41,612 nucleotides of DNA from Patescibacteria group bacterium (GTDB lineage Bacteria > Patescibacteriota > Minisyncoccia > Phycocordibacterales > SBAW01). A program made the position numbers and the translations under genes. Each line of letters starts with the position of its first letter. The stretch's first letter is position 1. The DNA is taken from NCBI GenBank assembly GCA_028866155.1, contig JAGWIT010000003.1, positions 1 through 41,612 of the forward strand, written 5' to 3'. Of this stretch, positions 1-40,989 are shown piece after piece. The notes beneath the pieces were generated by a model, which ran no database searches, was not told where the DNA came from, and saw only the letters and a list, made by a program, of their open reading frames with translations.

Positions 1-1
1 A

Positions 2-888: not shown

Positions 889-902
889 AGCCTATAAAAA
901 TT

Positions 903-1077: not shown

Positions 1078-1088
1078 ATTCAATTGTG

Positions 1089-2541: not shown

Positions 2542-2542
2542 A

Positions 2543-4489: not shown

Positions 4490-4498
4490 GGGAGTAGA

Positions 4499-6360: not shown

Positions 6361-6366
6361 GCAAAT

Positions 6367-6397: not shown

Positions 6398-6503
6398 TGT
6401 TGATCAAAATATACTGTATTAGAGCCCCAGTATGGGCTGGGTTGAGGATTTTAACGCGGCGAGAATTAATCCGGTTAGCAATCGCGGGGGTGTACCACCC
6501 TCC

Positions 6504-7217: not shown

Positions 7218-7233
7218 ATTTTAGTTAATCGCT

Positions 7234-7479
7234 TTACTGAGTAACTGGGCCTCCTGTTTGACCTTGGTTGGTAGGCGCTGGTTGAGAGCCTTGTTGCGGT
7301 ACGCCCTGACCGTGTGAGGTCGGGTTAAATCCGCCTTGACGCATAGAGCCAGGTGGCATGCCGCCGGGACCCGGTCTGCCAAAACCAGAAAAAATAACAA
7401 AAACAAGTGCGAGGAACAGCACGATCGTCGCAAAAAAGAATTTGACGCTATGCTTCTGTGAGAACTCTCTTATTGTCAT
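7234..7479 (-). CDS. Small single-TM protein with Gly/Pro/Gln-rich tail
   Basis: The 81-residue protein has a short basic N-terminus, one hydrophobic helix (about 14-33), and a low-complexity tail rich in Gly, Pro and Gln (GRPGPGGMPPGSM) that would be outside the cell. No family is recognised. It is the first gene after the shared promoter element at 7530-7560 (50-base leader) and precedes the secreted DUF5666/peptidoglycan-binding gene, so the pair likely makes an envelope component induced by the local sigma factor. The compositional bias is real and not due to a shifted frame, because the TM segment is in the same frame. Confidence 0.55.
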   Translation of the reverse strand: MTIREFSQKHSVKFFFATIVLFLALVFVIFSGFGRPGPGGMPPGSMRQGGFNPTSHGQGVPQQGSQPAPTNQGQTGGPVTQ

Positions 7480-7529
7480 ATGTAGTTAAATAGACAGTTA
7501 TTAAATAAGGAGAAAATACCCCTTGTTTA

Positions 7530-7560
7530 AGTAATACACTTAGGGTTTTGAATTATTACA
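7530..7560 (-). promoter_or_regulatory. Shared sigma-type promoter element, copy before 7479
   Basis: On the minus strand: TGTAATAAT, 15 bases, then TATTACT, with GTG just before the second box. Spacing is identical to the copies before the abrB operon and the sigma gene. It drives the small TM/DUF5666 pair with a leader of about 45 bases that includes AAGGAG. Confidence 0.6.
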
Positions 7561-7577
7561 TACGCCTTACGACAGTC

Positions 7578-8333
7578 TTACATTCCGCCTGGGATACTAG
7601 GTGGTGGGGGTAGATCATTAGCATTCTTAATATCTTGCGCTTGAATCTTTCCATCTATCATTTTTCCTTGAATAAAAATCCTATCTCCGACTTTTTCTTG
7701 AACTATTATCTGGCCAGAAGGCACCATGACCGTCACGGCAGTCGTAGTACTAGTATCCATCGGATTCAAGAGTGCTATAACCAGCGTGTCGCCCTCGATG
7801 CTGGTTATTGTCCCGAGAAAGATACCGTGCCCTGGCGGCGGCAACCTTCGGGCATTTTCGTACAAATTTCCAAAGGGCGGGGGTAAATGCTTTTGATCAG
7901 CTTGTCGCAAAAGCATGTCGTGCAAGGGTGTCTTGTCTATCACAAAACCCGATACCGACATTACAAAGATTACGCCTCCCAAAAGATAGAGTACAGGAAC
8001 CTTGTAACCAAATTTAAACGACCTAAGCAGGTACTGAAGAAGTATGATCAAACCAATTTCCAAGGTAGAAAGCCCCCAAGGGAATAGGAAGAGAAAGACT
8101 TGCCAACCCGCTGGACCGAAACCAATGAGAGAAGCTTGTCCGCTCGCCCGTATGGTAAAAAGAATGAAACTTGAGAGAAAAACCGATACTACAAGCACCG
8201 CAACCACAACAAGTATAAATGCGGCAAATCGCAGCCTAAAATATGTCTTTGGCGTAAGGGTCAGTTCATTCTTCCTGATCTTCTCAAGAATGTTCTGAAT
8301 CTTGTCTTGCGGTATAGGCTGTTTATTGTTCAT
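7578..8333 (-). CDS. Three-TM membrane protein co-translated with sigma factor; possible anti-sigma
   Basis: The 251-residue protein starts with a short soluble helix-rich segment (about 1-35, EKIRKNELTLTPKTYF). Three membrane helices follow (about 36-60, 74-100, 112-133), then an external OB-like segment (GIFLGTITSIEGDTLVIALL ... VGDRIFIQGKMIDG) like the DUF5666-type domains nearby. Its start overlaps the sigma-factor stop by 11 bases. ECF sigma genes are commonly followed by a membrane anti-sigma factor whose cytoplasmic part holds the sigma. Position and topology fit that role, but no known anti-sigma motif (such as a zinc-binding ZAS) is visible, so the role is inferred. Confidence 0.55.
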   Translation of the reverse strand: MNNKQPIPQDKIQNILEKIRKNELTLTPKTYFRLRFAAFILVVVAVLVVSVFLSSFILFTIRASGQASLIGFGPAGWQVFLFLFPWGLSTLEIGLIILLQYLLRSFKFGYKVPVLYLLGGVIFVMSVSGFVIDKTPLHDMLLRQADQKHLPPPFGNLYENARRLPPPGHGIFLGTITSIEGDTLVIALLNPMDTSTTTAVTVMVPSGQIIVQEKVGDRIFIQGKMIDGKIQAQDIKNANDLPPPPSIPGGM

Positions 8334-8898
8334 AATCCATGTTCATTTTTTTATAAATTTTCCGTAAGGCATCCTTTCCTCGGAGTACCCGCACTGCTAC
8401 CGTACCAGTTGGAATCTGAAGAATGTCCGATATTTCTTTATAACTTAGACCTTCAAGATAGTGAAGAATTATGACTTCTCGGCACTTAGGAGTTAGCTTT
8501 TCTAACCCTTGATCTATCATTTTCTTCATTATCTCGTGATCTCGCTCCTCCACTGCCGGATCTTCGTACGTCATATGAGAGACGAAGGTATCAAGATCGA
8601 GCCCTAAGACGGCGCTGCGCTGCTGGCGCTTCAGTCCGTTGACGAACGCGTTGTGAGCAATTCGGTATATCCACGAAGAGAATTTTAATGACGTGTCAAA
8701 ATTATTTATATTTTGAAAAGCGCTAATAAAAACATCCTGCACTATATCCTCTATATTTTCTTTTTCTGACAAGAATTTTCTACCGTATCGTGAAAGTTTT
8801 TTATCATACCGAGTCATGAGAAGACCATATTTTTCCTTGTCTCCTCCTTGGATAAGCAAAACTATCTGCTCATCGGTAAGTGATGGGAGGTCGTCCAT
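8323..8898 (-). CDS. ECF-type RNA polymerase sigma factor
   Basis: The 191-residue protein has sigma region 2 (ENIEDIVQDVFISAFQNINNF ... FSSWIYRIAHNAFVNGLKR, about 46-95) and region 4 (LTPKCREVIILHYLEGLSYKEISDILQIPTGTVAVRVLRG, about 137-178), with no regions 1 or 3. That is the standard ECF layout and length. It would redirect RNA polymerase to a small set of promoters. Its own upstream region carries the bipartite element shared with three neighbouring units, consistent with positive autoregulation. The following membrane gene overlaps by 11 bases and is the likely controlling partner. Confidence 0.92.
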   Translation of the reverse strand: MDDLPSLTDEQIVLLIQGGDKEKYGLLMTRYDKKLSRYGRKFLSEKENIEDIVQDVFISAFQNINNFDTSLKFSSWIYRIAHNAFVNGLKRQQRSAVLGLDLDTFVSHMTYEDPAVEERDHEIMKKMIDQGLEKLTPKCREVIILHYLEGLSYKEISDILQIPTGTVAVRVLRGKDALRKIYKKMNMDYEQ

Positions 8899-8912
8899 AC
8901 CTAAAGTCTACA

Positions 8913-8943
8913 CTATATACATCCCTCACTATGTATTATTACA
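8913..8943 (-). promoter_or_regulatory. Shared sigma-type promoter element, copy before the sigma gene
   Basis: On the minus strand: TGTAATAAT, 15 bases, then TATATAG, with ATG before the second box. It lies 14 bases before the sigma start, so the leader would be short. It sits back to back with the plus-strand copy at 8956-8986, 12 bases away. Confidence 0.6.
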
Positions 8944-8955
8944 TTTAACGACTAA

Positions 8956-8986
8956 TGAAATAATGTTGCGTGCCTGGTGTAGTAGT
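8956..8986 (+). promoter_or_regulatory. Shared sigma-type promoter element, copy before the 9065 gene
   Basis: On the plus strand: TGAAATAAT, 15 bases, then TAGTAGT, with GTG before the second box. It differs by one base in the first box and one or two in the second from the other copies. It points to the secreted DUF5666 gene starting at 9065, with a leader of about 70 bases. Confidence 0.5.
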
Positions 8987-9064
8987 TACTGAGGGGCGAA
9001 GAAGGAGATGGCCACTGCACTTCAATTGCCCAGAATAAAAAATTACTACTAACAATTAAACAAC

Positions 9065-9748
9065 ATGAAAACTAGCATTAAAAGCAAACTATTCATTATC
9101 CCCATGCTCGCAGTAGCGCTTGCTGGTGGAGCGGCGGCTGGTATAAGCGGTATAGCAAGTGCTTCGACTTCTACCAATACTGCAACTCAAACTTTCACTG
9201 ATCACGGTCATAGAGGCATGGGTCCGGGTATTGTCGGCACTGTCTCGGCAGTTAACGGCGATTCTCTAACGGTGGCGGGTAAAAATGGCACCACTTATAC
9301 CGTTGATGTTACCACTGCGACAGTCATGAAAAGCAGCGGTGCAGGTAGTGCTCCCACTACTGTAGCCATTAGTGATATCGCAGTAGGCGACACTATCATG
9401 GCGCAGGGCACTGTAAGTGGTACTAGCGTAACGGCAACCAATGTCATGGATGGTCAATTCTTTGGCGGCCCGCATGGCGGCCCGGGTGGTATGGGCGGCG
9501 TAATGGGCACTGTCTCGGCAGTTAACGGTACAACTATTACCGTTACTGGTCAGAACGGCGGCACGTATACCGTTGACGCATCAAGCGCTACAGTTAATGA
9601 AAATGGAAGCACCTCCTCTCTCTCCAACGTCAAAGTCGGCGATACAGTACGTGTAGGAGGCAGTATTACCACCGCTTCGATGACTGCAACAAATATCGAC
9701 GATGGCATACCACAGGCTCCAGCACAAGCAACAGGTACTGCTCAATAA
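9065..9748 (+). CDS. Secreted protein with two DUF5666-type domains
   Basis: The 227-residue product has a signal peptide (about 1-34, cleavage near ASAST) and a His/Gly spacer. Two tandem copies of a small beta domain follow: GIVGTVSAVNGDSLTV ... VGDTIMAQGTVSG (about 55-128) and GVMGTVSAVNGTTITV ... VGDTVRVGGSI (about 145-210). A Gly-rich hinge (GGPHGGPGGMGG) separates them. The same domain occurs in the peptidoglycan-binding protein at 6504. It is transcribed divergently from the sigma gene, carries a copy of the shared promoter element, and ends in a strong terminator. No enzymatic residues are evident; a structural or ligand-binding envelope role is likely. Confidence 0.75.
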   Translation: MKTSIKSKLFIIPMLAVALAGGAAAGISGIASASTSTNTATQTFTDHGHRGMGPGIVGTVSAVNGDSLTVAGKNGTTYTVDVTTATVMKSSGAGSAPTTVAISDIAVGDTIMAQGTVSGTSVTATNVMDGQFFGGPHGGPGGMGGVMGTVSAVNGTTITVTGQNGGTYTVDASSATVNENGSTSSLSNVKVGDTVRVGGSITTASMTATNIDDGIPQAPAQATGTAQ

Positions 9749-9767
9749 AACATAATTAGTGCAAAAC

Positions 9768-9802
9768 AAAACACCGCCCATTATAGGCGGTGTTTTGTTT
9801 TC
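9768..9802 (+). terminator. Intrinsic terminator after the DUF5666 gene
   Basis: AAAACACCGCC (9768-9778) pairs with GGCGGTGTTTT (9786-9796) around a 7-base loop and is followed by GTTTT. A strong, nearly symmetric terminator. Confidence 0.9.
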
Positions 9803-9848
9803 CTTACTGGGCATTGACGCGTCTCGAGCGCGATGACCTAGCTCAGGT

Positions 9849-9936
9849 TGGCGGAGACGAGAGGATTCGAACCTCTGATGGGTTGCCCCATGCCGGTTTT
9901 CGAAACCGGTGCATTCGACCACTCTGCCACGTCTCC
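9849..9936 (-). tRNA. tRNA-Ser (anticodon CGA)
   Basis: On the minus strand the gene starts GGAGACGTGGCAGAGTGG and ends CGTCTCCG plus an encoded CCA. The anticodon stem CCGG...CCGG carries loop TTTCGAA (anticodon CGA). A long variable arm (GCATGGGGCAACCCATC) marks a class II tRNA, and the T arm has GGTTCGAATCC. The acceptor GGAGACG/CGTCTCC is fully paired. It borders the accessory island on its left side. Confidence 0.95.
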
Positions 9937-9952
9937 TTGTTTTTACAGTGCC

Positions 9953-9979
9953 AAAAAAGCAAAGCAGTTTGCTTTTTTT
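9953..9979. terminator. A/T-flanked bidirectional hairpin upstream of tRNA-Ser
   Basis: AAAAAAGCAAA (9953-9963) and TTTGCTTTTTT (9968-9978) pair perfectly around GCAG. It can act as a terminator on either strand. It lies between tRNA-Ser and the first gene remnant, at the edge of the accessory block. Confidence 0.5.
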
Positions 9980-9983
9980 ACAC

Positions 9984-10081
9984 CTGGTGACCAGTTTACT
10001 TGGCTTTCCGAACTCGGACAATACCGAGCTGCCATCGGTTTGAGCATCCAAGAGCTGCGTGGGTTAGTTCCAAATATATAA
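9984..10081 (+). pseudogene. 3' gene remnant, copy 1 (unidentified family)
   Basis: About 75-90 bases match the sequence at 12957-13057. Both read DQFTWLSELGQYRAAIGLS in the same plus-strand frame and end in a stop. Base differences between the copies fall largely at third codon positions (GCT/GCC, AGC/AGT, GAG/GAA, CGT/CGA, TTA/TTG, GTT/GTG, CCA/CCT), so these are diverged 3' ends of a protein-coding gene rather than a recent non-coding duplication. No start or preceding body is left. I do not recognise the family; an integrase-type gene is one possibility, given the position at a tRNA. Confidence 0.5.
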
Positions 10082-10113
10082 AGAAAAAGACCGCAAGCAA
10101 AATGCCTACGGTC
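10081..10113 (-). terminator. Intrinsic terminator of the ATP-grasp operon
   Basis: On the minus strand GACCG (10113-10109) and CGGTC (10093-10089) form a hairpin followed by TTTTTCTTT. It lies just after the ATP-grasp stop codon. Confidence 0.65.
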
Positions 10114-10126
10114 CCAGTTGAACATC

Positions 10127-11158
10127 CTAACGCTCCATGTGCTTGAGCACCTCAAGGTACATGTCCTCAACGATTTTCTGTTGTGCTTTGCCAGTCTTCA
10201 CGTAATGGTCAAGCCCAGGCGCGGAGTTGATTTCAAGCACCCAGTATTTTTCAGGCGACTTGGTTATATCGCCCTCAATCATGAGGTCAACTCCGCATAG
10301 CCGAAGCCCCATATCTTCCGCCGACTTGATTGCGAATTGGCGAAAGCCAGGATGCATCGTATTGGTGACATCCACAGCGTCACCGCCTGCAGAGAGGTTC
10401 GCATTATCGAGCAGGTAGACACGCTGTCCTTTTACAGGTACGGATTGAAGGGTCAGTTTCTCCCTTGCGAGTTTTGCCTTTATGCGAGGGTCCTCCATGC
10501 GGAGCCTCGTATCTCGGCTGCTGGTAGAGAAGCGGCGTTGTTTCTTTTCCAGCAATTCAGCGATGGTCGAATGTCCGTCGCCAATCACGTTAAGCGGAAT
10601 ACGTTCGTACGCCGAGATTACCTTGTCATCAAGCACTACGATGCGGTAATCCCGCCCTTTCACAGGAGTTTGCACCAGCGCCACGCGGTCAAGTTTGAAG
10701 ATGCGACGCATAGCGCTGTAGAAATCGCGCCGTGTGTGGCATAACGCGACCCCCTTACCTTGACTGCCACTATTTGGCTTGACGATGACAGGAAAGCCGA
10801 CTTCTTGAGCGTAAGCATATGCGGCATCCAAGCTGCGAGGCGACTCAAGCGCTTCTGCCCACTTTGGAGCAAAGAACGTTTTGCCTGGCACTGTGGGATA
10901 CCCCATACGCTTCATAAAGAAGTTCGCGTAGTCCTTGTCTTTGGAGATTTCCGCAGCTCCAAGCGTGTTGAGGTCGAGGCTCGAATAGCGGAAGTAGCGT
11001 TTCTTGCCACTCTTGTAGATAATCTGACCTGCAATATTCCATTCGGTCTCCATGACCACCTTAGCCCCGATTCTTGGGGCTATTTTGCGGAATATTTTGC
11101 CCACCAAAGGACCAGGGTAAGCTGGCTTTTTCATGGCTTTGTTCCTCGTTGATTGCAT
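10127..11158 (-). CDS. ATP-grasp ligase, cyanophycin synthetase/RimK-like
   Basis: The 343-residue protein has an ATP-grasp core: FPVIVKPNSGSQGKGV (ATP-binding loop, about 125-140), a segment GRDYRIVVLDDKVISAYERIP, the lid element NVIGDGHSTIAELLE, and the metal-binding end CGVDLMI ... YWVLEINSAPGLDHY. The GDGHSTI and EINSAPG motifs resemble the ATP-grasp domains of cyanophycin synthetases, RimK-type glutamate ligases and GshAB. It should form an amide bond between a carboxylate and an amine using ATP. It is the last gene of a four-gene group with a CofE-like gamma-glutamyl ligase, a folate cyclo-ligase and an NlpC/P60 hydrolase, which suggests a glutamylation-related task. The translation may begin at the second Met (MKKPAYPG). 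Substrate unknown. Confidence 0.8.
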   Translation of the reverse strand: MQSTRNKAMKKPAYPGPLVGKIFRKIAPRIGAKVVMETEWNIAGQIIYKSGKKRYFRYSSLDLNTLGAAEISKDKDYANFFMKRMGYPTVPGKTFFAPKWAEALESPRSLDAAYAYAQEVGFPVIVKPNSGSQGKGVALCHTRRDFYSAMRRIFKLDRVALVQTPVKGRDYRIVVLDDKVISAYERIPLNVIGDGHSTIAELLEKKQRRFSTSSRDTRLRMEDPRIKAKLAREKLTLQSVPVKGQRVYLLDNANLSAGGDAVDVTNTMHPGFRQFAIKSAEDMGLRLCGVDLMIEGDITKSPEKYWVLEINSAPGLDHYVKTGKAQQKIVEDMYLEVLKHMER

Positions 11159-11191
11159 CCTGCAGGATATTACAATCGAAATTGCCGAGTG

Positions 11192-11911
11192 TCAATTTCG
11201 ACGAGTTTTCTTTTGCTTAGCTAAGTTTAATTTACCAAACAGTGGGAGGTACAAATCATCGGTTACAGGGATTATAAGTTCTTTACGATTGACACGTTCG
11301 CGCAAGATTACAGGGGCGTTTTTGATAATAGCGAGCGGTTTTCGCTCATTACCTTCTCCCATCAGCAGTACGGCAGAAGTAGCAAGACTGTCCGCTATAT
11401 CTACGCGAGTCATTTTTAATTTACGACCAAATAAATCAGCAGAACCGCGATAATCTTTGATGCCGCCAAAACCAGCGTAACCCAGTGCCACACCGACTAC
11501 CCCCGCTCGCAGAGGCAACACTCTACTATCGGTTATCAGTACACCAAGCGATGAAAGTTTATAATGTTTCAATAAAGCTTTCCTCAGACGAGTAGCTGCC
11601 CTAAAGCTATCTTTTGGGAGGAGGACTAATTTACCTTGGGCATTTGACTCGTCTATGCCTGCAGCTGCCATAAACATGCCGTCTTTTATGGTCAGCCAAA
11701 CGTATTTAGTAGGTATTGCCCATTCGCTCTCTTTTTGAATTATTTTTATTTTTTCTTTAGGCTCTGCGGTACGACCTTCAGCTAAGGCAACTATTTTTGA
11801 AGTAACAACGAGAATATCACCATTGTTGAGATGTGATACGTGTTCAAAAACAAAATGCTCTAATTTTTCCTTTTCCTGAAACAGTCTCGTATGTATTGCT
11901 CGTATATTCAT
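11192..11911 (-). CDS. CofE-like F420-0:gamma-glutamyl ligase family protein
   Basis: The 239-residue protein matches the CofE/FbiB ligase fold: GDILVVTSKIVALAEGR near the N-terminus, ITDSRVLPLRAGVVGVALGYAGF in the centre (the D-x-R-x-G-x-x-G/A region), then DYRGSADLFGRKLKMTRVDIADSLATSAVLLMGEG. Canonical CofE adds gamma-linked glutamates to coenzyme F420-0 with GTP. No other F420 gene is visible here, and F420 is not expected in a CPR bacterium, so the true substrate may be a folate or another acceptor. Four bases separate it from the 5-FCL gene upstream, implying coupling. Confidence 0.8.
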   Translation of the reverse strand: MNIRAIHTRLFQEKEKLEHFVFEHVSHLNNGDILVVTSKIVALAEGRTAEPKEKIKIIQKESEWAIPTKYVWLTIKDGMFMAAAGIDESNAQGKLVLLPKDSFRAATRLRKALLKHYKLSSLGVLITDSRVLPLRAGVVGVALGYAGFGGIKDYRGSADLFGRKLKMTRVDIADSLATSAVLLMGEGNERKPLAIIKNAPVILRERVNRKELIIPVTDDLYLPLFGKLNLAKQKKTRRN

Positions 11912-11915
11912 ATTT

Positions 11916-12329
11916 TCATCGCGCGTTTGTTTTATAGTGTTCGACTCCGCTTATCTTTTTTACGTAGACCCAATCAACCAATTCATCCCAAGGTTGTTTT
12001 TTGAGCGATATGGGTGAAAATTGATTTTCATAACAAAAACCAATACGTACCCATTGGGGTGGTATAGCAGAAAGAAACCTGTCATACCAACCACCGCCTC
12101 GTCCATGCCTCACTCCGAGGCTATCGAAGGCAGTACCAGGCACATAGACACATACTTTTGGGTGGTCAAAAAGTGCAATTACTTTGCTTGCCGCATCACG
12201 AGGCTGTAAAGATAAATCGGGAGGAATAACGAAACGAATTGACGGTAGGGCGGCTAAGCATTGCAGAGGGTCTGGTTCGCTGCTAAGTGGCGCATACCCA
12301 ATAGCTTCGTATGAGCGGAAGTTTTCCAT
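11916..12329 (-). CDS. 5-formyltetrahydrofolate cyclo-ligase family, N-terminally short
   Basis: The C-terminal signature of 5-FCL is clear: VYVPGTAFDSLGVRHGRGGGWYDRFLS, the ATP/folate-binding loop. PLSSEPDPLQCLA matches the usual position about 50 residues in. From the ATG at 12329 the protein has 137 residues against roughly 180-200 for the family; the Arg/Lys-rich first helix is missing. The track's longer ORF (to 12416) runs through a hairpin and does not supply that helix. Activity on 5-formyl-THF is therefore uncertain. It is coupled to the CofE-like gene, so a folate or gamma-glutamyl link is plausible. Confidence 0.75.
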   Translation of the reverse strand: MENFRSYEAIGYAPLSSEPDPLQCLAALPSIRFVIPPDLSLQPRDAASKVIALFDHPKVCVYVPGTAFDSLGVRHGRGGGWYDRFLSAIPPQWVRIGFCYENQFSPISLKKQPWDELVDWVYVKKISGVEHYKTNAR

Positions 12330-12359
12330 AGATGAATTGTATTCTATTTTGTAGAGAAA

Positions 12360-12380
12360 CTGCCGCCCTAAGAGCGGCAG
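12360..12380 (-). terminator. Hairpin at the end of the NlpC/P60 gene
   Basis: CTGCCGC (12360-12366) pairs with GCGGCAG (12374-12380). On the minus strand it is followed by TTTCTC, a weak U-tract. It covers the last codons of the NlpC/P60 gene and precedes the 5-FCL start, so it may be an attenuator inside the operon. Confidence 0.5.
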
Positions 12381-12799
12381 TATAGTTGAGGTGGTATTCG
12401 ACGTACTCCAAGACATCCCCTCGCAACAAATATAGAAAACGGTTCTTCAATGACACCGTTCTTCCATTTTGTAGCGTGGATGACTGTATGCTCGTGTGTA
12501 GCTATTCCTACATGACCGAAGTCATCTTCGTTTAGTTGGTAGTCAAGCCGAGGTATAAACACGAGGTCTGCGACACCAACCTCTTCAAGGCGAATCGGGA
12601 TTACTTCGGACCAGGCGAGCTGATGGTCAGGCAAGGAAACCCCTAAAGGCTCCAAAAGCCACTGCATAAAGCGGAAACAATTAAGAACTTTTGGGGCTTC
12701 TTCAAGGGTTGCCGTTCTGCGATAAACGGAAATCCCTATGCACGCACGAGCCCGATGGATGAGCAGTCCTTGATATGAGAAACTACTCGGAAAACTCAT
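12368..12799 (-). CDS. NlpC/P60-like hydrolase
   Basis: The 143-residue protein shows the papain-like NlpC/P60 pattern: a cysteine in VLNCFRFMQWLL (about residue 41), DLVFIPR before FGHVGIATHEHTVIHATKW (catalytic His region about 90-110), and EEPF after it. The family hydrolyses gamma-glutamyl or other amide bonds in peptidoglycan peptides or transfers acyl groups. No signal peptide is visible, so it may act in the cytoplasm, unlike wall hydrolases. It leads the group with 5-FCL, CofE-like and ATP-grasp genes; a hydrolase beside two amide-forming ligases could trim or recycle the product. Confidence 0.7.
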   Translation of the reverse strand: MSFPSSFSYQGLLIHRARACIGISVYRRTATLEEAPKVLNCFRFMQWLLEPLGVSLPDHQLAWSEVIPIRLEEVGVADLVFIPRLDYQLNEDDFGHVGIATHEHTVIHATKWKNGVIEEPFSIFVARGCLGVRRIPPQLYCRS

Positions 12800-12928
12800 G
12801 GCATATCCTCCTCCATTGGTTCAAAGGGTTTATGCTTACGCCTGGCGCCAATCCTAAATATAGCTGGACCAGGTAGCGATGTAGTGATTTTGCAACATTT
12901 GCTTAGTATAGCAGATTTTATTTTATAG

Positions 12929-13057
12929 AAAACGTACACAACATTCACGAAGTTCACTGGTGACCAGTTTACTTGGCTTTCCGAACTCGGACAATACCGA
13001 GCCGCCATCGGTTTGAGTATCCAAGAACTGCGAGCGTTGGTGCCTGTTCAGTCCTAG
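12929..13057 (+). pseudogene. 3' gene remnant, copy 2
   Basis: Open from 12929 to TAG 13055-13057. The part from CTGGTGACCAG (12957) onward is the homologue of copy 1 at 9984, ending in ...QELRALVP plus a short tail. Upstream of 12957 the two copies no longer match. The stop overlaps the AbiV stop on the other strand (CTAG). It marks the border between the glutamyl-ligase group and the defence-like operon. Confidence 0.5.
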
Positions 13058-14691
13058 CTCTTGTCGCCACTGCGAGGCGGAGCGGGTGTTGGGTCGCTGC
13101 CTAGCACTATCTCGATTTTTGTGCCCGAGCGGTTCTCCTCAAACTCTTTCGCAAGTTTGATGAGGTATGCGTCGCAGTATGCCTTCATTGCGATAACTTC
13201 GGTGAGGGTGATTGGCTTGATGGTGGCGTGTTTTGCCTCAAGCTCTGCTCCCAGGTCGAGCATAGCGTCAACGTTCGCAGTCTGGTCTCCATAAAAGAGT
13301 GTGAGTTGCTCGTGCGCTGCTTTCTTGAGGTCGGACTTGCCGTCCCAGTGTCCATTCATTTGCAAGGCAGTCTTGAGCGCCTTGTAGAATTGCTCAAAGG
13401 CGTTGAGTTCCAATCGGAGATGCACGTCGTTTTTTGCCAATAAACTGATGCCACTGACGTATAGGTCAATCGCCTCGGCATGCTTCTCCATCCATAAGTG
13501 GCTGATGTACTGAAAGACAAGGCCAGTGAGCGATAGTTCCGTGCTCCCGAGCACGAGACGCATCGACTTCCAATCTAACTGAAGGCGAGGATTTAGTTCC
13601 AACCTCACACCAGCGTTGCTCTCCAAGTCCCAAATCTCATCATAAAAGCGGCTGATATCAACGGGCACGTTCCACCAGAACAGCCCGCGCGTTGCGATGT
13701 TGAGAGCCGCAACAAACATTCGGCAATAGCCATACGAGTAATCCCACAGCCCTTGCACGGGTACTTTTTTCGGAAGAGTCAGTTCGATGATGAGCGTATT
13801 TTTATCGCTCTGCTTCAGCTTCAACATACTCGACTGGGCGTTGAGTTCGTTGAGTGCCTTATTACGGATTGAATGAGATGGAGTCTTTATCTTCACGCGC
13901 ACGCGCCATTTCGGTTTCCAAGCCTCTTCATCGCTCGGCTTTTGCCGCGTCATTTCCTTTTGCAACAACTCTCGCATCGCACCCTCGTTCTGTTCGTAGA
14001 CCTCTCGAAGCCACGGTATCCACTTTTTGACATCACCGAGTTCAATCAATTTCTGCTGCGAAGCGGGACTCCATATTTCTTTTCTTTTTTGTGGGTCATC
14101 AACTGCCTTGAAAAACCACTGCAAGTTAGGGTCATCAGGCCCCGCGACCTCCTCGCTGACATCGCCTTCCGCCTGCTCCAACTTGAGTCGAGCCTCCACA
14201 AAACCGTGAATCATTTTTGCTTCACCCTCTTTCATCTTGTCGCGCCACGAGAGCATATCGTCTGGATTGGCGTAAAAGTAGTCCATCCGACGTTCGTGCA
14301 GATTCTTTGCAAGACCTCGTTGGTCATCAATTTGCTTTTGACTTATTTTCTGTTTGCCAAATGATTGCCCCCAAATCGCAAAGAAAAGCTTTTTCTCGTG
14401 GTCATCAATGTCGAGGTTCATCTCGCGGTCGCTGGGGTGCTTCGCCGCCATAAGGCGCACGCCCATAAGTTCGACCTTGCCAATCTCCTCAAGCGCAAGC
14501 ACGGAGAGGTGAAATGCTATGTGGTCGAGTTTCTTTTCAAGCATTGCCGAGGCACCATCGAGTAGCTCCTCGGCGTTCTTGAGGCAAATATGACGGAACT
14601 CATTGTGTTTTTTGATGTCTTCTGGCTTCATTGGCGCGTTGATTGTACCGCTCTGTGCAAGGCGTCGCAAAAGTGCTGCACCCGAACCCAT
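13054..14691 (-). CDS. AbiV-family abortive-infection-like protein, enlarged
   Basis: The N-terminal part (about 20-200) fits the AbiV family: KNAEELLDGASAMLEKKLDHIAFHLSVLALEEIGKVELM, with the EEIGK signature and a later HEKKLFFAIW helix. AbiV proteins are HEPN-like helical proteins that block phage protein production. Typical members are about 200 residues; this one has 545, with a C-terminal domain (about 230-540) I cannot name. The track start at 14691 is five bases after the previous stop; MKPEDIKK at 14631 is an alternative that begins at the domain. It is the last gene of a six-gene minus-strand operon. Confidence 0.7.
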   Translation of the reverse strand: MGSGAALLRRLAQSGTINAPMKPEDIKKHNEFRHICLKNAEELLDGASAMLEKKLDHIAFHLSVLALEEIGKVELMGVRLMAAKHPSDREMNLDIDDHEKKLFFAIWGQSFGKQKISQKQIDDQRGLAKNLHERRMDYFYANPDDMLSWRDKMKEGEAKMIHGFVEARLKLEQAEGDVSEEVAGPDDPNLQWFFKAVDDPQKRKEIWSPASQQKLIELGDVKKWIPWLREVYEQNEGAMRELLQKEMTRQKPSDEEAWKPKWRVRVKIKTPSHSIRNKALNELNAQSSMLKLKQSDKNTLIIELTLPKKVPVQGLWDYSYGYCRMFVAALNIATRGLFWWNVPVDISRFYDEIWDLESNAGVRLELNPRLQLDWKSMRLVLGSTELSLTGLVFQYISHLWMEKHAEAIDLYVSGISLLAKNDVHLRLELNAFEQFYKALKTALQMNGHWDGKSDLKKAAHEQLTLFYGDQTANVDAMLDLGAELEAKHATIKPITLTEVIAMKAYCDAYLIKLAKEFEENRSGTKIEIVLGSDPTPAPPRSGDKS

Positions 14692-14696
14692 CAGGG

Positions 14697-15317
14697 TCAG
14701 GAGTGGCAGTTCTTATCTTTGATGTTGTTCACGACGTTCACAAGTGCAGTGAGACCATCAGGTGTAAGGTGGTTGTCAGCAAGATATTTTTGCACCTCTG
14801 CATTTTTTGCCGTGATTTGAATGTAATACGAGAATGAGTTGCACAGGTCATCCTCTGAAAGCAGTCCCTCGTTGTAGGTGGCATCAATCTCGTCGAAATT
14901 GCCGAGGTAGGTATCGAGTTGGTCGGTCGTGAACTTGCCTTTTGGTTGGAGTATCGGGTCGCCACGGTCAATCGCTCCCGCGAGTGCCTCACTGTTAGGT
15001 GTGTAGAATTGCCCATTGAGCGCGATGTTGTTCTCGGACGCCACCTGGTCGTGAGCATCCTTGATGAGCCAGCCAGTAAGAATTACGACGCCCACTGTGA
15101 GCGCAACCAACCCCCACGTCAAGAACACAAGCTTGCGCGACCATCGGTCGCTGCTGTTGCTGAACTTCACCAGGTTGGTGTTGAGCGTGCCGATGACTTG
15201 TTTCAGGTCGCGTAGCTCAATAACGGCTTTTTTGAGGCGGTCGTTACCCGTCGCAGCCAGGTCTCGGTCAACACCATTGCCCGTTTTTATCTCCTGTAAA
15301 TCATTCTCTGCGGTCAT
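14697..15317 (-). CDS. Single-TM protein, DUF4760-like C-terminal part (tentative)
   Basis: The 206-residue protein has a cytoplasmic predicted coiled coil (about 25-60, KKAVIELRDLKQVIGTLNTNL), one TM helix (about 65-88), and an external or juxtamembrane domain with YLGNFDEIDATYNEGLLSEDDLCNSF. This last segment resembles the FE-I-...-Y-x-x-G motif of DUF4760-type proteins found in defence loci, but the resemblance is by eye only. It lies between the queuosine-salvage gene and AbiV with gaps of 28 and 5 bases. It may anchor or sense for the system at the membrane. Confidence 0.5.
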   Translation of the reverse strand: MTAENDLQEIKTGNGVDRDLAATGNDRLKKAVIELRDLKQVIGTLNTNLVKFSNSSDRWSRKLVFLTWGLVALTVGVVILTGWLIKDAHDQVASENNIALNGQFYTPNSEALAGAIDRGDPILQPKGKFTTDQLDTYLGNFDEIDATYNEGLLSEDDLCNSFSYYIQITAKNAEVQKYLADNHLTPDGLTALVNVVNNIKDKNCHS

Positions 15318-15345
15318 AAGATTGAGTTTTTGGGAATGACACCTT

Positions 15346-16302
15346 CTAGTACGCAGTCGTTAGCGTTCGATGGTACGGCTTATCGTCAGGCCGCTTGGTC
15401 TGTCCCATGAGCCAAAGATGGTCGTTGATACCAACAGAGGAAGCAATTTTACCGCTCTTTGCCAACTCATTTTTTATGGCCTCCACAGCCCATATTGTGT
15501 TCGCTCTAATCTCCACTTCTTCCGCGCTGCCGTGCGGGATTTGCGCGAGCGAATCCACTTTATCAGCCAGTCCTGCGTCGTAAGACAGGATGCCCAATCT
15601 TCGCAATGACTGCGGCAGTTTGTAGTCGGCACATGCCGTGAACCCTTCCAAGTTATTCAATTCGCCGTACCCCTCGCCGCCGAATGTCTGGTACACGTCC
15701 TCAACCAAAAGTTGCGCTCGCTTATAGAAATAGATTGTCTTGTCGTCGTACTCCGAGGTGTCATTGAAGGACGGGAAGTTTTCTATGATGAGGTTGAGCA
15801 GTTGAAGCCCATCTTTATTGGCTGCGCGAACGATATTCGCAAAATCCGCCTCGAACTTATTTACGAGAGTTGATGCAAGCCCTGTAGTAATTTTCCACCG
15901 CTCCTCCAAGAGAGGTATCTCAACATTCCCGCGCGTCATTCGCTGGTAGTTTTCTTTGCTCATCTGCGAGCGATACTTGGCATCCAAAATCGGCATCCCC
16001 TCATCAATCGCTCTCATGATGGCCGCAATCATGCCCCATGAACCGTCGTATTGCTGCCCCTTGTACTCAATCGTCCATTTTGGGTCGCCCCAATAGCAAA
16101 AACTTGTCGAGTTGAAAACGAGCAAAAAGTTCAGTTTTTCGCTATCCGCAAGATGCGAGTATGCGATTGGTGAGCCATTCAACCAATGTGAAAGATTGCC
16201 ATGTTGGAAAGCCGCGCAAAACTCAATCACTTTATCCTGATTGATTTTGACGTGTTGAGACCTGTCAACGACGTAGCGCGTTGTTTCCAAAATCTTACTC
16301 AT
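15346..16302 (-). CDS. Queuosine-salvage hydrolase (DUF2419 / Qng1 family)
   Basis: The 318-residue product matches the queuosine 5'-phosphate N-glycosylase family along its length: NSTSFCYWGDPKWTIEY, then YDGSWGMIAAIMRAIDEGMPI, IPLLEERW, FPSFNDT with FYKRAQLLVEDVY, and GFTACADYKLPQSLRRLGIL followed by GSAEEVEIRANTIWAVE. Known members release the queuine base from queuosine 5'-phosphate so that it can be salvaged into tRNA. No queuosine biosynthesis or tgt gene is in the window. It sits four bases after a NUDT15-like Nudix gene inside an operon with a nuclease and AbiV, so the substrate here may be a modified nucleotide rather than a vitamin. Confidence 0.82.
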   Translation of the reverse strand: MSKILETTRYVVDRSQHVKINQDKVIEFCAAFQHGNLSHWLNGSPIAYSHLADSEKLNFLLVFNSTSFCYWGDPKWTIEYKGQQYDGSWGMIAAIMRAIDEGMPILDAKYRSQMSKENYQRMTRGNVEIPLLEERWKITTGLASTLVNKFEADFANIVRAANKDGLQLLNLIIENFPSFNDTSEYDDKTIYFYKRAQLLVEDVYQTFGGEGYGELNNLEGFTACADYKLPQSLRRLGILSYDAGLADKVDSLAQIPHGSAEEVEIRANTIWAVEAIKNELAKSGKIASSVGINDHLWLMGQTKRPDDKPYHRTLTTAY

Positions 16303-16306
16303 ACGT

Positions 16307-16741
16307 TTATGCGTCCCAAAATGTGCGGCCTGTCCTGTACGCTTCTATATAACTTGGCAACGTCGCAAAAAGCGGTTGTGGCAAATCATCCATATCGCGC
16401 CATTCCCACGCCTCGACCTTGTTTGGCTCTAACACTTGTGGCTCACCACTTTTCCAATCACAGATAAGGCCGACATCAACGTAATGTTTCGGCGCGTACT
16501 GTTTGAGGTTCATTAGCCGTAAAAAACGAATGTTGGCAATCTCTATTCCTGTTTCCTCTTTGACCTCACGCTTGGCGCAGTCCTCGAACGACTCCATGTA
16601 TTCCATGTGGCCACCTGGCCATGCCCACTCGCCTTCGCCGTGCGAACCCTTGCGCCTGCCGAGAAGCACTTTGCCATCTTTGAGCACCATCACGCCCACA
16701 CCGACTTTTGGTCTCTGTTCGTCATTCATATGATTATTCAT
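16307..16741 (-). CDS. Nudix hydrolase, NUDT15/MTH2-like
   Basis: The 144-residue protein carries an exact Nudix box, GGHMEYMESFEDCAKREVKEETG. Flanking motifs are typical of the NUDT15 type: VGVGVMVLKDGKVLLGRRKGSHGEG, KHYVDVGLICDW, and EPNKVEAWEWRDMDDLPQPLF. Such enzymes cleave (modified) nucleoside triphosphates to monophosphates. Four bases separate it from the queuosine-salvage gene, which acts on a nucleoside 5'-monophosphate. The two could work in sequence: triphosphate to monophosphate, then base release. Confidence 0.92.
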   Translation of the reverse strand: MNNHMNDEQRPKVGVGVMVLKDGKVLLGRRKGSHGEGEWAWPGGHMEYMESFEDCAKREVKEETGIEIANIRFLRLMNLKQYAPKHYVDVGLICDWKSGEPQVLEPNKVEAWEWRDMDDLPQPLFATLPSYIEAYRTGRTFWDA

Positions 16742-36229: not shown

Positions 36230-36769
36230 ATGGAGGAGAGTTCGTTCCTACACCCCAAGCGGGCGGTACGCGCGGCAAAAATCCACGAAGGCATGCGCGT
36301 TGCCGATTTTAACGCTGGAGCGGGATTTTTTACACGCGCGGCGGCGCGCGCAGCCGGCCCCGAGGGAGTGGTGTGGGCAGTCGACGCCAACCGCGACCTC
36401 CTGCCGCGGATAAAAAACCTCAGCGTCGGCGAAGGGCTGCACAACGTCGAGGTTATGCATGGCGATGTCTCGCGCGCAGAGGGGAGCAACCTGCCGGCAG
36501 AGTCGTTCGATTTTTGCCTTGCGGCCAATCTTTTGTTCGGCGTCGAGGACAAGGCGGCCACCTTGCGCGAGATGCGCCGCGTGCTCAAACCCCGCGGCAA
36601 GGCGCTCGTCATCGATTGGCGAGGCTCTTTTGGGGGCCTCGGGCCGCATCCAAGCCACGTGGTCACGGCGGCCGCCGCCAAAGAGCTGGCTGGGGACGAG
36701 GGCTTTACCATTTTGGAGGATATCCCGGCGGGCGAGTACCACTGGGGATTCGTCGCGCGCAAAAAATAA
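36230..36769 (+). CDS. SAM-dependent methyltransferase (class I)
   Basis: From ATG 36230 (MEESSFLHPKRAV) the 179-residue protein has the SAM-binding motif I VADFNAGAGFFTRAAA, motif II around VWAVDANRDLL, the acidic VMHGDVSR, and FCLAANLLFGVEDKAATLREMRRVLKPRGKALVIDW. It fits the type 11 methyltransferase family. The track start at 36044 adds an unrelated Arg-rich stretch and is wrong. Substrate unknown. It lies before the solute-binding protein gene. Confidence 0.87.
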   Translation: MEESSFLHPKRAVRAAKIHEGMRVADFNAGAGFFTRAAARAAGPEGVVWAVDANRDLLPRIKNLSVGEGLHNVEVMHGDVSRAEGSNLPAESFDFCLAANLLFGVEDKAATLREMRRVLKPRGKALVIDWRGSFGGLGPHPSHVVTAAAAKELAGDEGFTILEDIPAGEYHWGFVARKK

Positions 36770-36798: not shown

Positions 36799-38100
36799 AT
36801 GAATCATCTCTCCACATTCCAGATAATAGTCTTCGGCTTGTCTATCTTTTTTCTTATCCTTGGCGTGGGTATCTTTGCCGCGTTTGGCGGGCTTCTCGGG
36901 GGCTCGAGCGTCGGGCCGGTCACGGTGTGGGGCACGATGGACGCCTCGGTCATGAGCAATTTGCTCGCGACCCTGCGCCAATCGGACAAAACATTTGAGA
37001 ACGTGCAGTATATCCAAAAAGACCCTGCGACCTACGACACCAACCTGGTGAGCGCAATGGCCGCAGGCACCGGCCCCGATCTCTTTTTGGTCTCGCAGGA
37101 CACGGTCTCGTCTTTTGCCGACAAGATAAAGGCCATTCCGTACGGCAGCTACTCGCAGGCGCAGTTTACCGGTTCGTTCATCGACGAAGGCCAGCTTTTT
37201 TTGACCAACACTGGCGCGCTGGCTTTGCCGTTTAGCATCGACCCGCTGGTGATGTACTACAACCGCGACCTTTTTGCCGCCGCGGGCCTTGCCCAGGCGC
37301 CCAAATATTGGAATGATTTCCTCACTATCGCGCCAAAAATAACCTCGCTCGATACTAACTCGAATGTTCAAAAAAGCGCCGTCGCGCTCGGGGTGTGGCC
37401 GAACATCGACCATGCCAAGGACATCCTCTCGACGCTCTTTATGCAGGCGGGAGATCCGATAATCGTGCGCGGCTCCGACGGCTCGCTGGTGCCGGTCTTC
37501 GGCCAGACGCCCGTGAACGCGCCGGCCAACCCCGCCGAGTCGGCTCTGCGCTTTTATACCGAGTTCGCCGACCCCTCAAAAACCACCTACTCGTGGAACG
37601 CCTCTTTGCCCGAGGCCTCTATAGCGTTTACCTCCGGCGATGTGGCAGTATACTTCGGTTTTGCCAGCGAATATCCGAGCTTAGCCGCACGCAACCCAAA
37701 CCTGCACTTTAGTGCGGCACTCCTCCCGCAGCTCCAAGGCAACTCCTCTCAGCTGACGTTCGGCGAGCTCACGAGCGTCGCCATATCGCGCACCGCGCAC
37801 AACCCTGCCGGCGCGCTCGCGGTGGCCGAAAAGCTGACCGGCCAGCAAGCGATTTTGCTTTTGACGCAGGCCGAAGGGTTGCCGCCGGTACGCCGCGATG
37901 TCATCGTCGACACCTCGAGCAGCGCCGCCCTGCAGGTGTTCGTGCAGTCGAGCCTGCTCTCCAAAGCGTGGCTTGACCCCGCACCCGCGCAGACAAACGC
38001 CATCTTCAAGACCATGATCGAGTCGGTCATCAGCGGAGCCGAGCAGCCCGCGGGCGCCGTGTCGCTCGGCGCGCAGTCGCTCGCGCAAATTTCGCACTAA
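36799..38100 (+). CDS. Membrane-anchored extracellular solute-binding protein
   Basis: The 433-residue protein has an N-terminal TM helix (about 8-30) instead of a lipobox, then a family 1 solute-binding fold: VTVWGTMD, NLVSAMAAGTGPDLFLVSQDT, LPFSIDPLVMYYNRDLFAAAGL (sugar-binding protein signature), and FTSGDVAVYFGFASEY. Such proteins deliver sugars or oligomers to ABC importers. No ABC permease or ATPase for it is in the window; downstream are small pilin-like membrane genes, the first two bases later. It may serve another uptake machine or act as a surface binder. Confidence 0.83.
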   Translation: MNHLSTFQIIVFGLSIFFLILGVGIFAAFGGLLGGSSVGPVTVWGTMDASVMSNLLATLRQSDKTFENVQYIQKDPATYDTNLVSAMAAGTGPDLFLVSQDTVSSFADKIKAIPYGSYSQAQFTGSFIDEGQLFLTNTGALALPFSIDPLVMYYNRDLFAAAGLAQAPKYWNDFLTIAPKITSLDTNSNVQKSAVALGVWPNIDHAKDILSTLFMQAGDPIIVRGSDGSLVPVFGQTPVNAPANPAESALRFYTEFADPSKTTYSWNASLPEASIAFTSGDVAVYFGFASEYPSLAARNPNLHFSAALLPQLQGNSSQLTFGELTSVAISRTAHNPAGALAVAEKLTGQQAILLLTQAEGLPPVRRDVIVDTSSSAALQVFVQSSLLSKAWLDPAPAQTNAIFKTMIESVISGAEQPAGAVSLGAQSLAQISH

Positions 38101-38101
38101 C

Positions 38102-38323
38102 ATGTCCCACGACCTCATCAACACGGTTATGGCGCTCCTCTTTGCGGTGGCGCTGGTGTGTGTGGGGTGGGGGATGGCGATGTATTTTTATGAGATGGGG
38201 AGCGACGAGGGCAAGAAAGAATACAAGGGCCTGCTTCTCAACAGTGTTTCGGCGCTGGTATTATTGATGATAATCTACGCCGTTTTGGAGTGGCTCAGGG
38301 GAGCCGTGGGCGGATTTTTTTAG
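38102..38323 (+). CDS. Two-TM small membrane protein (pilin-like array, member 1)
   Basis: 73 residues with two TM helices (about 8-28, 45-65) joined by a charged loop (MGSDEGKKEYKG). The same plan recurs in the next four genes. It starts two bases after the solute-binding protein stop. Confidence 0.6.
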   Translation: MSHDLINTVMALLFAVALVCVGWGMAMYFYEMGSDEGKKEYKGLLLNSVSALVLLMIIYAVLEWLRGAVGGFF

Positions 38324-38338
38324 CTATATACTAGAGAC

Positions 38339-38764
38339 ATGAAGCGAATTATTTTTGCAACCATAATTGCCGGGTCGATTATCCTTGTGCCTGTCCTCAC
38401 TTTTGCGCAAAGTAATCCCGCCACCGGTGGTGTGAGTAATCCCGTGTCCGGTGGTCAAACATCCTACACCGTTCAAAACCCGCTCGCGGCTAACAGCTTT
38501 TGCGGCCTTGTCCAAAATTTGCTGAAGGCGGCACTCGCCATCGGCATCCCCATCGCGGTGCTCTTCATAGTCTACGCAGGTTTTAAGTTTGTTCTGGCGC
38601 AGGGCAACTCCACCAAGCTTGAAGAAGCGAGAAACAATTTTATGTGGACAGTCGTCGGCATCGGGATATTCCTCGGCGCATGGCTCTTGGCGAGCGTCGT
38701 TGCCAACACCATCAATGCGCTCGGCTCCGGCGGCAACCAGCCCAACATCATCTCTTGCAATTAA
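38339..38764 (+). CDS. VirB2/TrbC or T4SS-pilin-like protein (member 2)
   Basis: The 141-residue product has a signal peptide (about 1-24, ending TFAQ), a Ser/Gly linker, then two TM helices (about 67-90, 105-130) around the loop GNSTKLEEARNNFMWTVVG, and a C-terminal Cys pair partner (ISC; first Cys in NSFCG). This matches VirB2-type pilins, which are processed into short hydrophobic subunits. No VirB4, VirB6 or other T4SS part is in the window. Confidence 0.72.
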   Translation: MKRIIFATIIAGSIILVPVLTFAQSNPATGGVSNPVSGGQTSYTVQNPLAANSFCGLVQNLLKAALAIGIPIAVLFIVYAGFKFVLAQGNSTKLEEARNNFMWTVVGIGIFLGAWLLASVVANTINALGSGGNQPNIISCN

Positions 38765-38769
38765 TTAAT

Positions 38770-39126
38770 ATGGGACTGCTCAACTCGGGCGCGACATTTG
38801 CTTCGATAGTAGAAAGCGTCATCTTGCTCATCAACCTTCTCTTGGGGGTGCTCGCGGCGCTCGCTATTGTCGTGTTCTTTTACGGTTTGGTCCTCTATGT
38901 ATACAAATCGGGCGACGCCCACGCGCACGAAGAAGGGCGCGAGCGGATAGTGTGGAGCCTTATAGCGCTCTTTGCCCTTTTTTCTATCTGGGGGATCCTG
39001 GCGCTCCTGCAGATATCTTTTTTTGGCGGGACCGTGATGAACTCGGGCACTTATTCGCCTTCGTATGGCAATACGAGTGCCCAAAGTTCTGGCACTTTTC
39101 AATCAAGCAGCAATGCTATCTATTAA
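38770..39126 (+). CDS. Two-TM pilin-like protein (member 3)
   Basis: From ATG 38770 the protein has 118 residues: two TM helices (about 12-42, 60-82) around KSGDAHAHEEGRERIVWS, then a Ser/Tyr/Gly-rich external tail (TYSPSYGNTSAQSSGTF). The loop and second helix (LIALFALFSIWGILALLQ) closely resemble members 4 and 5. The track ORF at 38644 starts too early. Confidence 0.65.
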   Translation: MGLLNSGATFASIVESVILLINLLLGVLAALAIVVFFYGLVLYVYKSGDAHAHEEGRERIVWSLIALFALFSIWGILALLQISFFGGTVMNSGTYSPSYGNTSAQSSGTFQSSSNAIY

Positions 39127-39202
39127 GTGCCTATCCACACGTCATCCTTGTGCGCTTTCGCCCGCCTGTTAGAGTTAGGGAGTAACCACACATCTTATAT
39201 TT

Positions 39203-39565
39203 ATGAAAAAAACAGCACTCGCCGCCGCTTTGCTCTTTGCACTCCCGTTTGTCGCCTTTGCCCAGGCGCTCCAGCCGGTCATGGTTCTCGTTTCTGCAGT
39301 GGGCAATATACTCAACATGCTCATCCCGGTCCTCATCGCGGCGGCATTGGTATTCTTTTTTTATGGTCTTATCAAATATATTCAGCATCCTGAAGGCGGC
39401 GGAGATCATGGCGGGGGCGGAGGCCGTTCAATCATGATAGCCGGCTTGGTGTCGCTCTTTATCATGGTGTCGGTTTGGGGCATTGTGAACCTCGCTCAAA
39501 ACGCGCTCGGCGTGCAGGGCAACGCGCCGGTGCAGGTGCCCCAGGTGCCGCAGGCGTCATACTAA
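39203..39565 (+). CDS. Two-TM pilin-like protein with Gly/His-rich loop (member 4)
   Basis: The 120-residue product has a signal peptide (about 1-20, AFAQA), two TM helices (about 33-60, 75-97), and a loop that carries GGGDHGGGGGR. The flanking FFFYGLIKYI and LVSLFIMVSVWGIVNLAQ match members 3 and 5. The tail is Pro/Val/Gln-rich. A 76-base gap before it is the only larger gap in the array and could hold a promoter. Confidence 0.68.
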   Translation: MKKTALAAALLFALPFVAFAQALQPVMVLVSAVGNILNMLIPVLIAAALVFFFYGLIKYIQHPEGGGDHGGGGGRSIMIAGLVSLFIMVSVWGIVNLAQNALGVQGNAPVQVPQVPQASY

Positions 39566-39575
39566 AGGGCTTCTC

Positions 39576-39842
39576 ATGCTCAATACCCAAACGCTCGTCA
39601 ATAACTTCACGAGAGTCATCGTCAATCCGATTATTGCGCTTCTCTTCGCGCTCGGGCTTTTGCTGTTTGCCTGGGGCATCATCGAGTTCTTGATAGGGCT
39701 CAACGCCAGCGGCGATTCGGACAAAAAAGAATCGGGCAAGCGCCACATGCTGTGGGGCATCATCGGGATGTTCATCATGATCTCGGCCTGGGCCATCATC
39801 AAATTCATCGACAGCTCGATAGGTTCCAACGCGCTCGGTTAA
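39576..39842 (+). CDS. Two-TM pilin-like protein (member 5)
   Basis: 88 residues, no clear signal peptide, two TM helices (about 15-40, 58-80) around GDSDKKESGKRHMLWG. It is the last of the array, ten bases after member 4, and is followed by a convergent terminator. Confidence 0.65.
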   Translation: MLNTQTLVNNFTRVIVNPIIALLFALGLLLFAWGIIEFLIGLNASGDSDKKESGKRHMLWGIIGMFIMISAWAIIKFIDSSIGSNALG

Positions 39843-39850
39843 TTTTTAGA

Positions 39851-39890
39851 AAATAAAAAGCGGCAGGCTACTTAAAGCCTGCCGCGTTTG
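39851..39890. terminator. Strong bidirectional terminator between convergent genes
   Basis: GCGGCAGGCT (39860-39869) pairs perfectly with AGCCTGCCGC (39876-39885). The U-tract is strongest on the minus strand (CTTTTTATTTTC) and weaker on the plus strand (GTTTG). Confidence 0.85.
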
Positions 39891-39900: not shown

Positions 39901-40989
39901 CTATCCGCAGACATCGAGCAGATTGCCCGGTGTCCATGGTTTGCAGTGGTTGAGCACTACCACAGCGCTCGCATCCGCGCGGATGGAGACAATGCCCTCG
40001 ATAGGGGGCATTGGTCCTTCACACGTGTGCGCCAGTTGATATCCGCTGGCGTTATACCACCCGACGCATCCTCGCAGTACCTGGCCGCGCAGTTGATATG
40101 CGGGGCTGTTCACTGCAGTGAGGTTGGGGCCATAAGTCAGTGTTTGAGACTGACCAAGGACCCAACCCGAGGGGACCGAAGTGCTCCGAATATTTCCTGC
40201 GGGAGTCGATACTTGCGACAAGAGGTATAAATCCCCTCCAGCCACAATCAATACAAGGAGTACCGCCAGTATCCTCCCCTCGGTGGCGTAAATTGCAATC
40301 CCGATAAGAATCGCGACTACTACTCCGCCTAGAAGCCATACACGCGGGTCGGCACCTAACTGCATAATGGGTCTGCATTCCAGATCCACGACGCACTTGG
40401 TGACGACCTTGAGGTGTTCCTCTCCAACATGAGCAAAGCCCATGATGGAAAAGGCGGCGATTAGCATGACAAAGGCGGCAACTCGCCTCGCTCCAGTGAG
40501 CTTGCCGGTTTCGTTGAGAAGAACGATACCCACGCCGTAGAATCCGAGCATAGAGAGCCCGGCCGGTCCATCGAGCAGCGGTTGTAAGGTGGGGATGCCG
40601 TAGTAGACAGCCACACCAAGAAACAGCGCACACAAAAGTTCGAGATAGGCTTCTTTTCCTTTGCCTACCAGCCACACGATAATCCCGCCCACCACGGCAA
40701 TCGCTACGATGACCGTGATGAAGGAAGGAAACGAGTGTGGCAGCGTCGCTCCGGCGCTGGAAGGCGCCGGAGCGACAGGAGTCGTAGTTGCTGCGTGTCC
40801 ACCGAACAGCAACATGCCGAAATAGACGAGCATGAACACCACCATCGCGGCAGCAGTTGTTGCCGCTGCAATGATAATCGCCCAGTAAAAGAATTTATCA
40901 GCACTAACTCGTGGGGGCAGGCTGATCTCGGGCGGCATCCTTCTCGTCGGTTGCTTTTCAGAGGGTTTTGCTTCAGTGCTTTCCGCCAT
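39901..40989 (-). CDS. Multi-TM membrane protein with external C-terminal domain
   Basis: The 362-residue protein has a Pro-rich cytoplasmic start, about six to seven TM helices (first at about 34-62, last near 230-260), and a C-terminal extracytoplasmic domain with four Cys (GCVGWYN, TCEGPM, NHCKPW, DVCG) that likely form disulfides. A paired CVVDLEC lies in a central loop. Its start overlaps the end of the SPFH-like gene by 17 bases, so the two are coupled. Family not recognised. Confidence 0.65.
   Translation of the reverse strand: MAESTEAKPSEKQPTRRMPPEISLPPRVSADKFFYWAIIIAAATTAAAMVVFMLVYFGMLLFGGHAATTTPVAPAPSSAGATLPHSFPSFITVIVAIAVVGGIIVWLVGKGKEAYLELLCALFLGVAVYYGIPTLQPLLDGPAGLSMLGFYGVGIVLLNETGKLTGARRVAAFVMLIAAFSIMGFAHVGEEHLKVVTKCVVDLECRPIMQLGADPRVWLLGGVVVAILIGIAIYATEGRILAVLLVLIVAGGDLYLLSQVSTPAGNIRSTSVPSGWVLGQSQTLTYGPNLTAVNSPAYQLRGQVLRGCVGWYNASGYQLAHTCEGPMPPIEGIVSIRADASAVVVLNHCKPWTPGNLLDVCG

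Follow-up and report, generated by a model that had tools for sequence, protein, structure and literature searches.

A membrane-anchored solute-binding protein gene heads an array of type IV secretion pilin-like genes in Patescibacteria

Patescibacteria are very small and are believed to live on other cells. Their type IV secretion systems (T4SS) include arrays of 2–11 VirB2 genes, with VirB4 encoded near dnaA (PMC12102498, PMC10633639). A VirB2 array was essential in Southlakia epibionticum (Wang et al. 2023, PMC10633639), and the T4SS was essential for epibiotic growth in the one species tested (PMC10633639, PMC12857230). For the most part, the 2025 survey of VirB2 and T4SS genes (Quinonero-Coronel et al. 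2025, PMC12102498) looked no further than 20 genes from virB4. Relaxases have been reported in the literature to be rare in Patescibacteria. The locus described here resembles the known VirB2 arrays in its PF18895 array, in a VirB4 encoded near dnaA and in being of the monoderm type of T4SS. It differs in the distance between array and virB4 and in having a solute-binding protein (SBP) at the head of the array, a component unmentioned in PMC12102498 and PMC10633639.

Three other described systems share parts of this locus. MalE/UgpB-type ABC-importer SBPs (PF01547) have the same fold and family, whereas the present SBP has no permease in its genome, carries an N-terminal transmembrane (TM) anchor (in this order, i.e., that of the source genome) and is linked to pilin genes. 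The Mbov_0395 family pilin-like conjugal transfer protein (NF045849), a single gene in mycoplasma elements, was matched by four of the five pilin-like proteins, all below the curated cutoff; the genes here form an ordered array. To our knowledge, no SBP is part of the archaeal Ced/Ted systems. These DNA importers (PMC9905601) resemble the present system in small two-TM VirB2-like pilins, a VirB4-type ATPase and single-membrane cells; the probable operon described here differs in its several ordered pilins and its SBP. No report linking an SBP to T4SS or pilin arrays was found in the open-access literature.

The window, i.e., the whole stretch of 41,612 nucleotides analyzed, spanned the whole of contig C64 (41.6 kb), part of a 0.9-Mb genome (G000) that was 97% complete. 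On the + strand between 36230 and 39842, a class I methyltransferase gene was followed by the SBP gene and by genes for five two-TM pilin-like proteins (Table 1), with successive gaps of 29, 1, 15, 5, 76, and 10 bases. The preliminary description had the binding protein two bases from the pilin-like row; it does directly precede the row, but the gap is a single base (SBP stop ending at 38100, ATG at 38102). A strong terminator-like hairpin came only past the last pilin gene, and the + strand terminator predictions further up, from the SBP to the last pilin, were weaker and intragenic. The methyltransferase, SBP and pilin row is read from its sequence as a probable operon. The methyltransferase, whose top NCBIfam matches were far under cutoff, preceded the SBP in most loci of this order.

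Table 1. Features at the 3′ end of the window (E-values from profile searches).
Feature	Position	Strand	Evidence or remark
Class I SAM methyltransferase (UbiE/ArsM-like)	36230..36769	+	PF13847 9.6e-15, read from an upstream start; conserved upstream neighbor in this order
Membrane-anchored orphan SBP, 433 aa	36799..38100	+	PF01547/PF13416 over cutoff; model; Foldseek
Pilin-like 1, 73 aa, no signal peptide seen	38102..38323	+	PF18895 2.9e-4, below cutoff
Pilin-like 2, 141 aa, signal peptide, TrbC/VirB2-like	38339..38764	+	PF18895 4.8e-11
Pilin-like 3, 118 aa	38770..39126	+	PF18895 3e-08 (read from 38764)
Pilin-like 4, 120 aa, signal peptide	39203..39565	+	PF18895 0.0065, below cutoff
Pilin-like 5, 88 aa, conserved last pilin	39576..39842	+	PF18895 3.9e-11; last-to-last best matches
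Terminator-like hairpin, bidirectional, 10 bp stem	39860..39885		3′ of last pilin
Convergent membrane protein	39901..40989	-	No family match; similar place in the cassette on contig C5
Convergent protein cut by contig end	40973..41611	-	Gene in the same place on C5 is a Band_7/SPFH protein

No sequence match was found between the truncated convergent protein and its positional Band_7/SPFH counterpart on C5. At the other end of the window, the first 16 kb had a GC content of 0.47–0.48 vs. 0.55–0.57, and a recombinase-like open reading frame lay at 1225–2541; together these suggest that positions 1–16670 are possibly foreign.

The SBP matched PF01547 (1.4e-19) and PF13416 (4.5e-17), both above cutoff. 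Its AlphaFold model, built from 50 homologues (pLDDT 92.4), comprised a TM helix (residues 6–30), a floppy linker (31–40), and a two-lobe SBP domain (41–433), so that the binding protein with a TM anchor proposed in the preliminary description was borne out. Profile and model agree in giving it the family and the fold of an ABC-importer solute-binding protein. The top Foldseek matches were SBPs for mannan oligosaccharide, sucrose/maltotriose and cyclic maltosyl-maltose, together with UgpB. The fold predicted by this high-confidence model is of the carbohydrate type, and the structural matches suggest, short of proof, that the ligand may be carbohydrate-like.

Mean pairwise identity of the SBP within this order was 0.40 for the TM helix, 0.43 for the domain and 0.20 for the linker, compared with 0.20 for a pilin signal peptide. 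Within the helix F7 was invariant, and Q8 and F26 were conserved in 90 and 96% of sequences. Only 1 of 50 homologues had a Cys within residues 11–40, and the first nine residues were without net charge in 28 of 50. Given this conservation, the rarity of Cys and the uncharged N-termini, the helix reads as a retained membrane anchor. Among linked SBPs of other families, a Cys closed the hydrophobic stretch in many, lipoprotein-like by eye, and a strict lipobox pattern was matched in 5 of 38. Anchoring therefore seems general while the type of anchor does not, and the Cys-ended SBPs weaken the idea that the conserved TM helix contacts the pilins throughout the phylum. The pilus-tip protein VirB5 has a mostly helical fold, which the two-lobe SBP model does not fit; a position or role analogous to that of VirB5 despite the different fold is conceivable.

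All five small proteins had two TM segments, i.e., the two-TM hairpin of a VirB2-like pilin, as the preliminary description had it. PF18895 (T4SS_pilin) scored over its curated cutoff in three of them and below it in two. A profile of related pilins, the seed of which included the window's own pilins, matched all five at 4.6e-17 or better (3.1e-24 for pilin-like 4). From these profile matches, the five probably belong to the T4SS_pilin family. The SGD...GR...W-G motif previously described as shared does exist, in degenerate form: genes 3 and 5 show it best, and gene 1 lacks it. The best match of pilin-like 1 was the first pilin of another five-pilin array (L079), and it appears to be additional to the usual four. 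Pilin-like 2 matched TrbC below cutoff (2e-4), and a TrbC match was present in 23 of 32 aligned orthologues; its model showed two long helices as a hairpin plus a signal helix. Searches of the PDB with the pilins, by sequence and by fold, gave no significant match. Pilin-like 2 also carried Cys at residue 55, before TM1, and at residue 140, near the C-terminus, each the commonest residue at its position (62% of aligned relatives). From sequence, a disulfide between these two on the outer face is conceivable.

When pilins of this order were compared between genomes, first pilins had a first pilin as best match 56 of 63 times and last pilins a last pilin 54 of 63 times; this signal was weaker phylum-wide. 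With their order kept between genomes, the pilins look like distinct subunits with different roles, and the alternative of interchangeable variants is disfavored. Several arrays contained a pilin domain fused to a large extra domain (300–1203 aa, sometimes Cys-rich), possibly adhesin-like (L187 6511–8091, L194 7077–8591, L200 8949–12560, L119 4722–6347, and L125 7285–8421). The window's own genome also encoded two longer proteins with an internal pilin-like domain (L057 191–1696 and L058 11093–12121), one adjoining virB4 (weak) and the other a Clp-type ATPase gene.

A profile scan found the SBP in 216 of 287 Patescibacteria genomes and 189 of 247 genera. Named relatives were Patescibacteria, including Adlerbacteria, Nomurabacteria, and Kaiserbacteria. 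Pilins lay no more than 5.5 kb downstream of the SBP on the same strand in 76/76 same-order loci, these being the loci with enough downstream DNA among 80 named ones, mostly of this order. Across the phylum the same was seen in 38/54 loci, each from a different family and chosen among the better-scoring matches listed. Some of the named loci lie on contigs that also belong to the genome set analyzed here, and the samples hence overlap. The next called gene after the SBP was a pilin in 71/75 and 35/54 loci. Pilin matches numbered 512 in 594 kb of downstream DNA vs. 6 in 603 kb of upstream DNA, and this near-empty upstream control rejects adjacency by chance. Upstream of the SBP, gyrA and the methyltransferase were usual in this order, and a GalU-like nucleotidyltransferase (PF00483) was common in other families. 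Since the upstream genes vary and the SBP-pilin pair stays, the constant partner is the pilin array. Judged from these sequences, the linkage is ancient. In one array (L228) there were two SBP genes, with a gene of about 290 aa between them.

The linkage was not universal. In 16 of the 54 families a divergent SBP had no adjoining pilins, and PF18895 genes were kept in 18 of 21 sampled genomes without the SBP. In several SBP-less genomes the pilin array adjoined VirB6-, PrgI-, and VirB4-looking genes, the arrangement known from the literature. One same-class genome (L259 2410–6473) had three pilins immediately after gyrA, the methyltransferase and the SBP both being missing. A strict dependency of the pilins on the SBP is rejected by the SBP-less genomes that keep pilins, and the SBP is better regarded as a lineage-dependent partner than as an obligatory one.

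The lack of an ABC partner noted in the preliminary description holds genome-wide: no PF00528 permease was found in the window's genome, while 14/14 control genomes were positive. Of 41 relatives, 38 had no PF00528 match and three had one (two above cutoff, one weak); in a sample of 26 genomes from elsewhere, each of which carried the SBP profile, 4 had a match and 22 had none. With importer permeases mostly absent, the SBP is an orphan, and conventional ABC uptake is disfavored. A VirB4-like ATPase gene, which the preliminary description proposed to look for nearby, was not found near the pilins but was present elsewhere in the genome, on contig C46 and adjoining dnaA (CD1110 family, NF045971, 1e-117, above cutoff). 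Its neighbors on C46 were a weak PrgI-like gene and a gene resembling the TrsD/VirB4 N-terminal type by eye. VirB4 was present in 38 of 41 relatives. Proximity to virB4 is not required in a Patescibacterial T4SS, as pilin genes next to it and at a distance from it are both on record in the literature. Just one fairly complete relative (G030, 91% complete) was without SBP and PF18895, and VirB4 was missing from it as well; coming from a single draft genome, this co-absence is suggestive only.

A second methyltransferase-SBP-pilin cassette, with six pilins, was found in the same assembly on the 8335-base contig C5 (L040, 3577–7992). Its methyltransferase and SBP were 33–40% identical to those of the window, and its SBP 29–40% identical to all relatives. 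No clear second copy was found in the other 59 genomes searched. The tetranucleotide fit of C5 to the window was 0.685, vs. 0.895 and 0.929 for two other contigs; parts of the window deviate in tetranucleotide profile as much as C5. The cassette may be a second copy that arose by duplication in this organism, or it may lie on a mis-binned contig.

The proposal preferred here, which we hold to have about an even chance of being correct, is that the SBP is an anchored extracytoplasmic receptor or assembly factor of a Patescibacterial T4SS or pilus. The operon would encode the extracytoplasmic part of this machine. Inserted in the membrane as VirB2-like hairpins, the pilins would form a pilus, their assembly aided by the VirB4 encoded beside dnaA. 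The SBP would sit on the outer face of the cytoplasmic membrane, contact the pilins and act as a ligand-binding receptor or an assembly and anchoring factor; it may recognize a ligand, glycan or sugar-like, from the host or from the cell's own envelope, and would feed no ABC importer. This proposal draws on the linkage, the orphan status, the presence of VirB4, the co-absence in G030, the kept pilin order, the fold and the conserved anchor, which suggest an SBP recruited to a pilus or secretion machine. Against it stand the SBP-less genomes that keep PF18895, the unlinked families, the unlinked virB4 and the pilin model without a significant PDB match. A purely structural part of the pilus base, with an SBP fold that has lost solute binding, is unlikely: the orphan status would fit, as would the divergence of the binding-region aromatics W102, W325, and W340, which are conserved in other families and not in this order, whereas W44, Y71, D148, N155, N202, Y264, W266, and N267 are nearly invariant in this order.

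Uptake of host-derived molecules, captured by the SBP and brought in through a T4SS-like channel or fiber, was raised in the preliminary description and seems improbable. A binding-protein fold without an ABC importer is what such an apparatus might have, and the T4SS-related Ced importer of archaea offers one precedent in principle (PMC9905601). Ced, however, moves DNA and has no known SBP, no importer is encoded in the window's genome, many genomes keep pilins without the SBP, and discussions of the Patescibacterial T4SS usually treat it as an exporter or attachment organelle (PMC10633639, PMC12857230). Just as improbable is shared transcription alone, with the SBP serving elsewhere as a sensor or with a transporter partner outside PF00528. 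The housekeeping genes upstream (gyrA, galU-like, methyltransferase) and the SBPs that stand alone speak for it, but the SBP-pilin pair was kept in most families while the upstream genes changed, and PF00528 permeases were few. Separate regulation with no co-conservation of SBP and pilins, named in the preliminary description as grounds for abandoning the link, did not occur as far as sequence allows. Phylum-wide gene order and the operon-like layout strongly support a conserved function shared by the SBP and the pilins.

Surveys centered on the virB4 neighborhood can miss part of the Patescibacterial T4SS. An SBP heads many pilin arrays, and its domain is expressible alone; its ligand could reveal what the machine recognizes. 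As a tentative and rather doubtful extension, a widespread form of the T4SS or pilus may use a former nutrient-binding protein as a dedicated receptor, through which a host or envelope glycan would gate assembly, secretion or even import.
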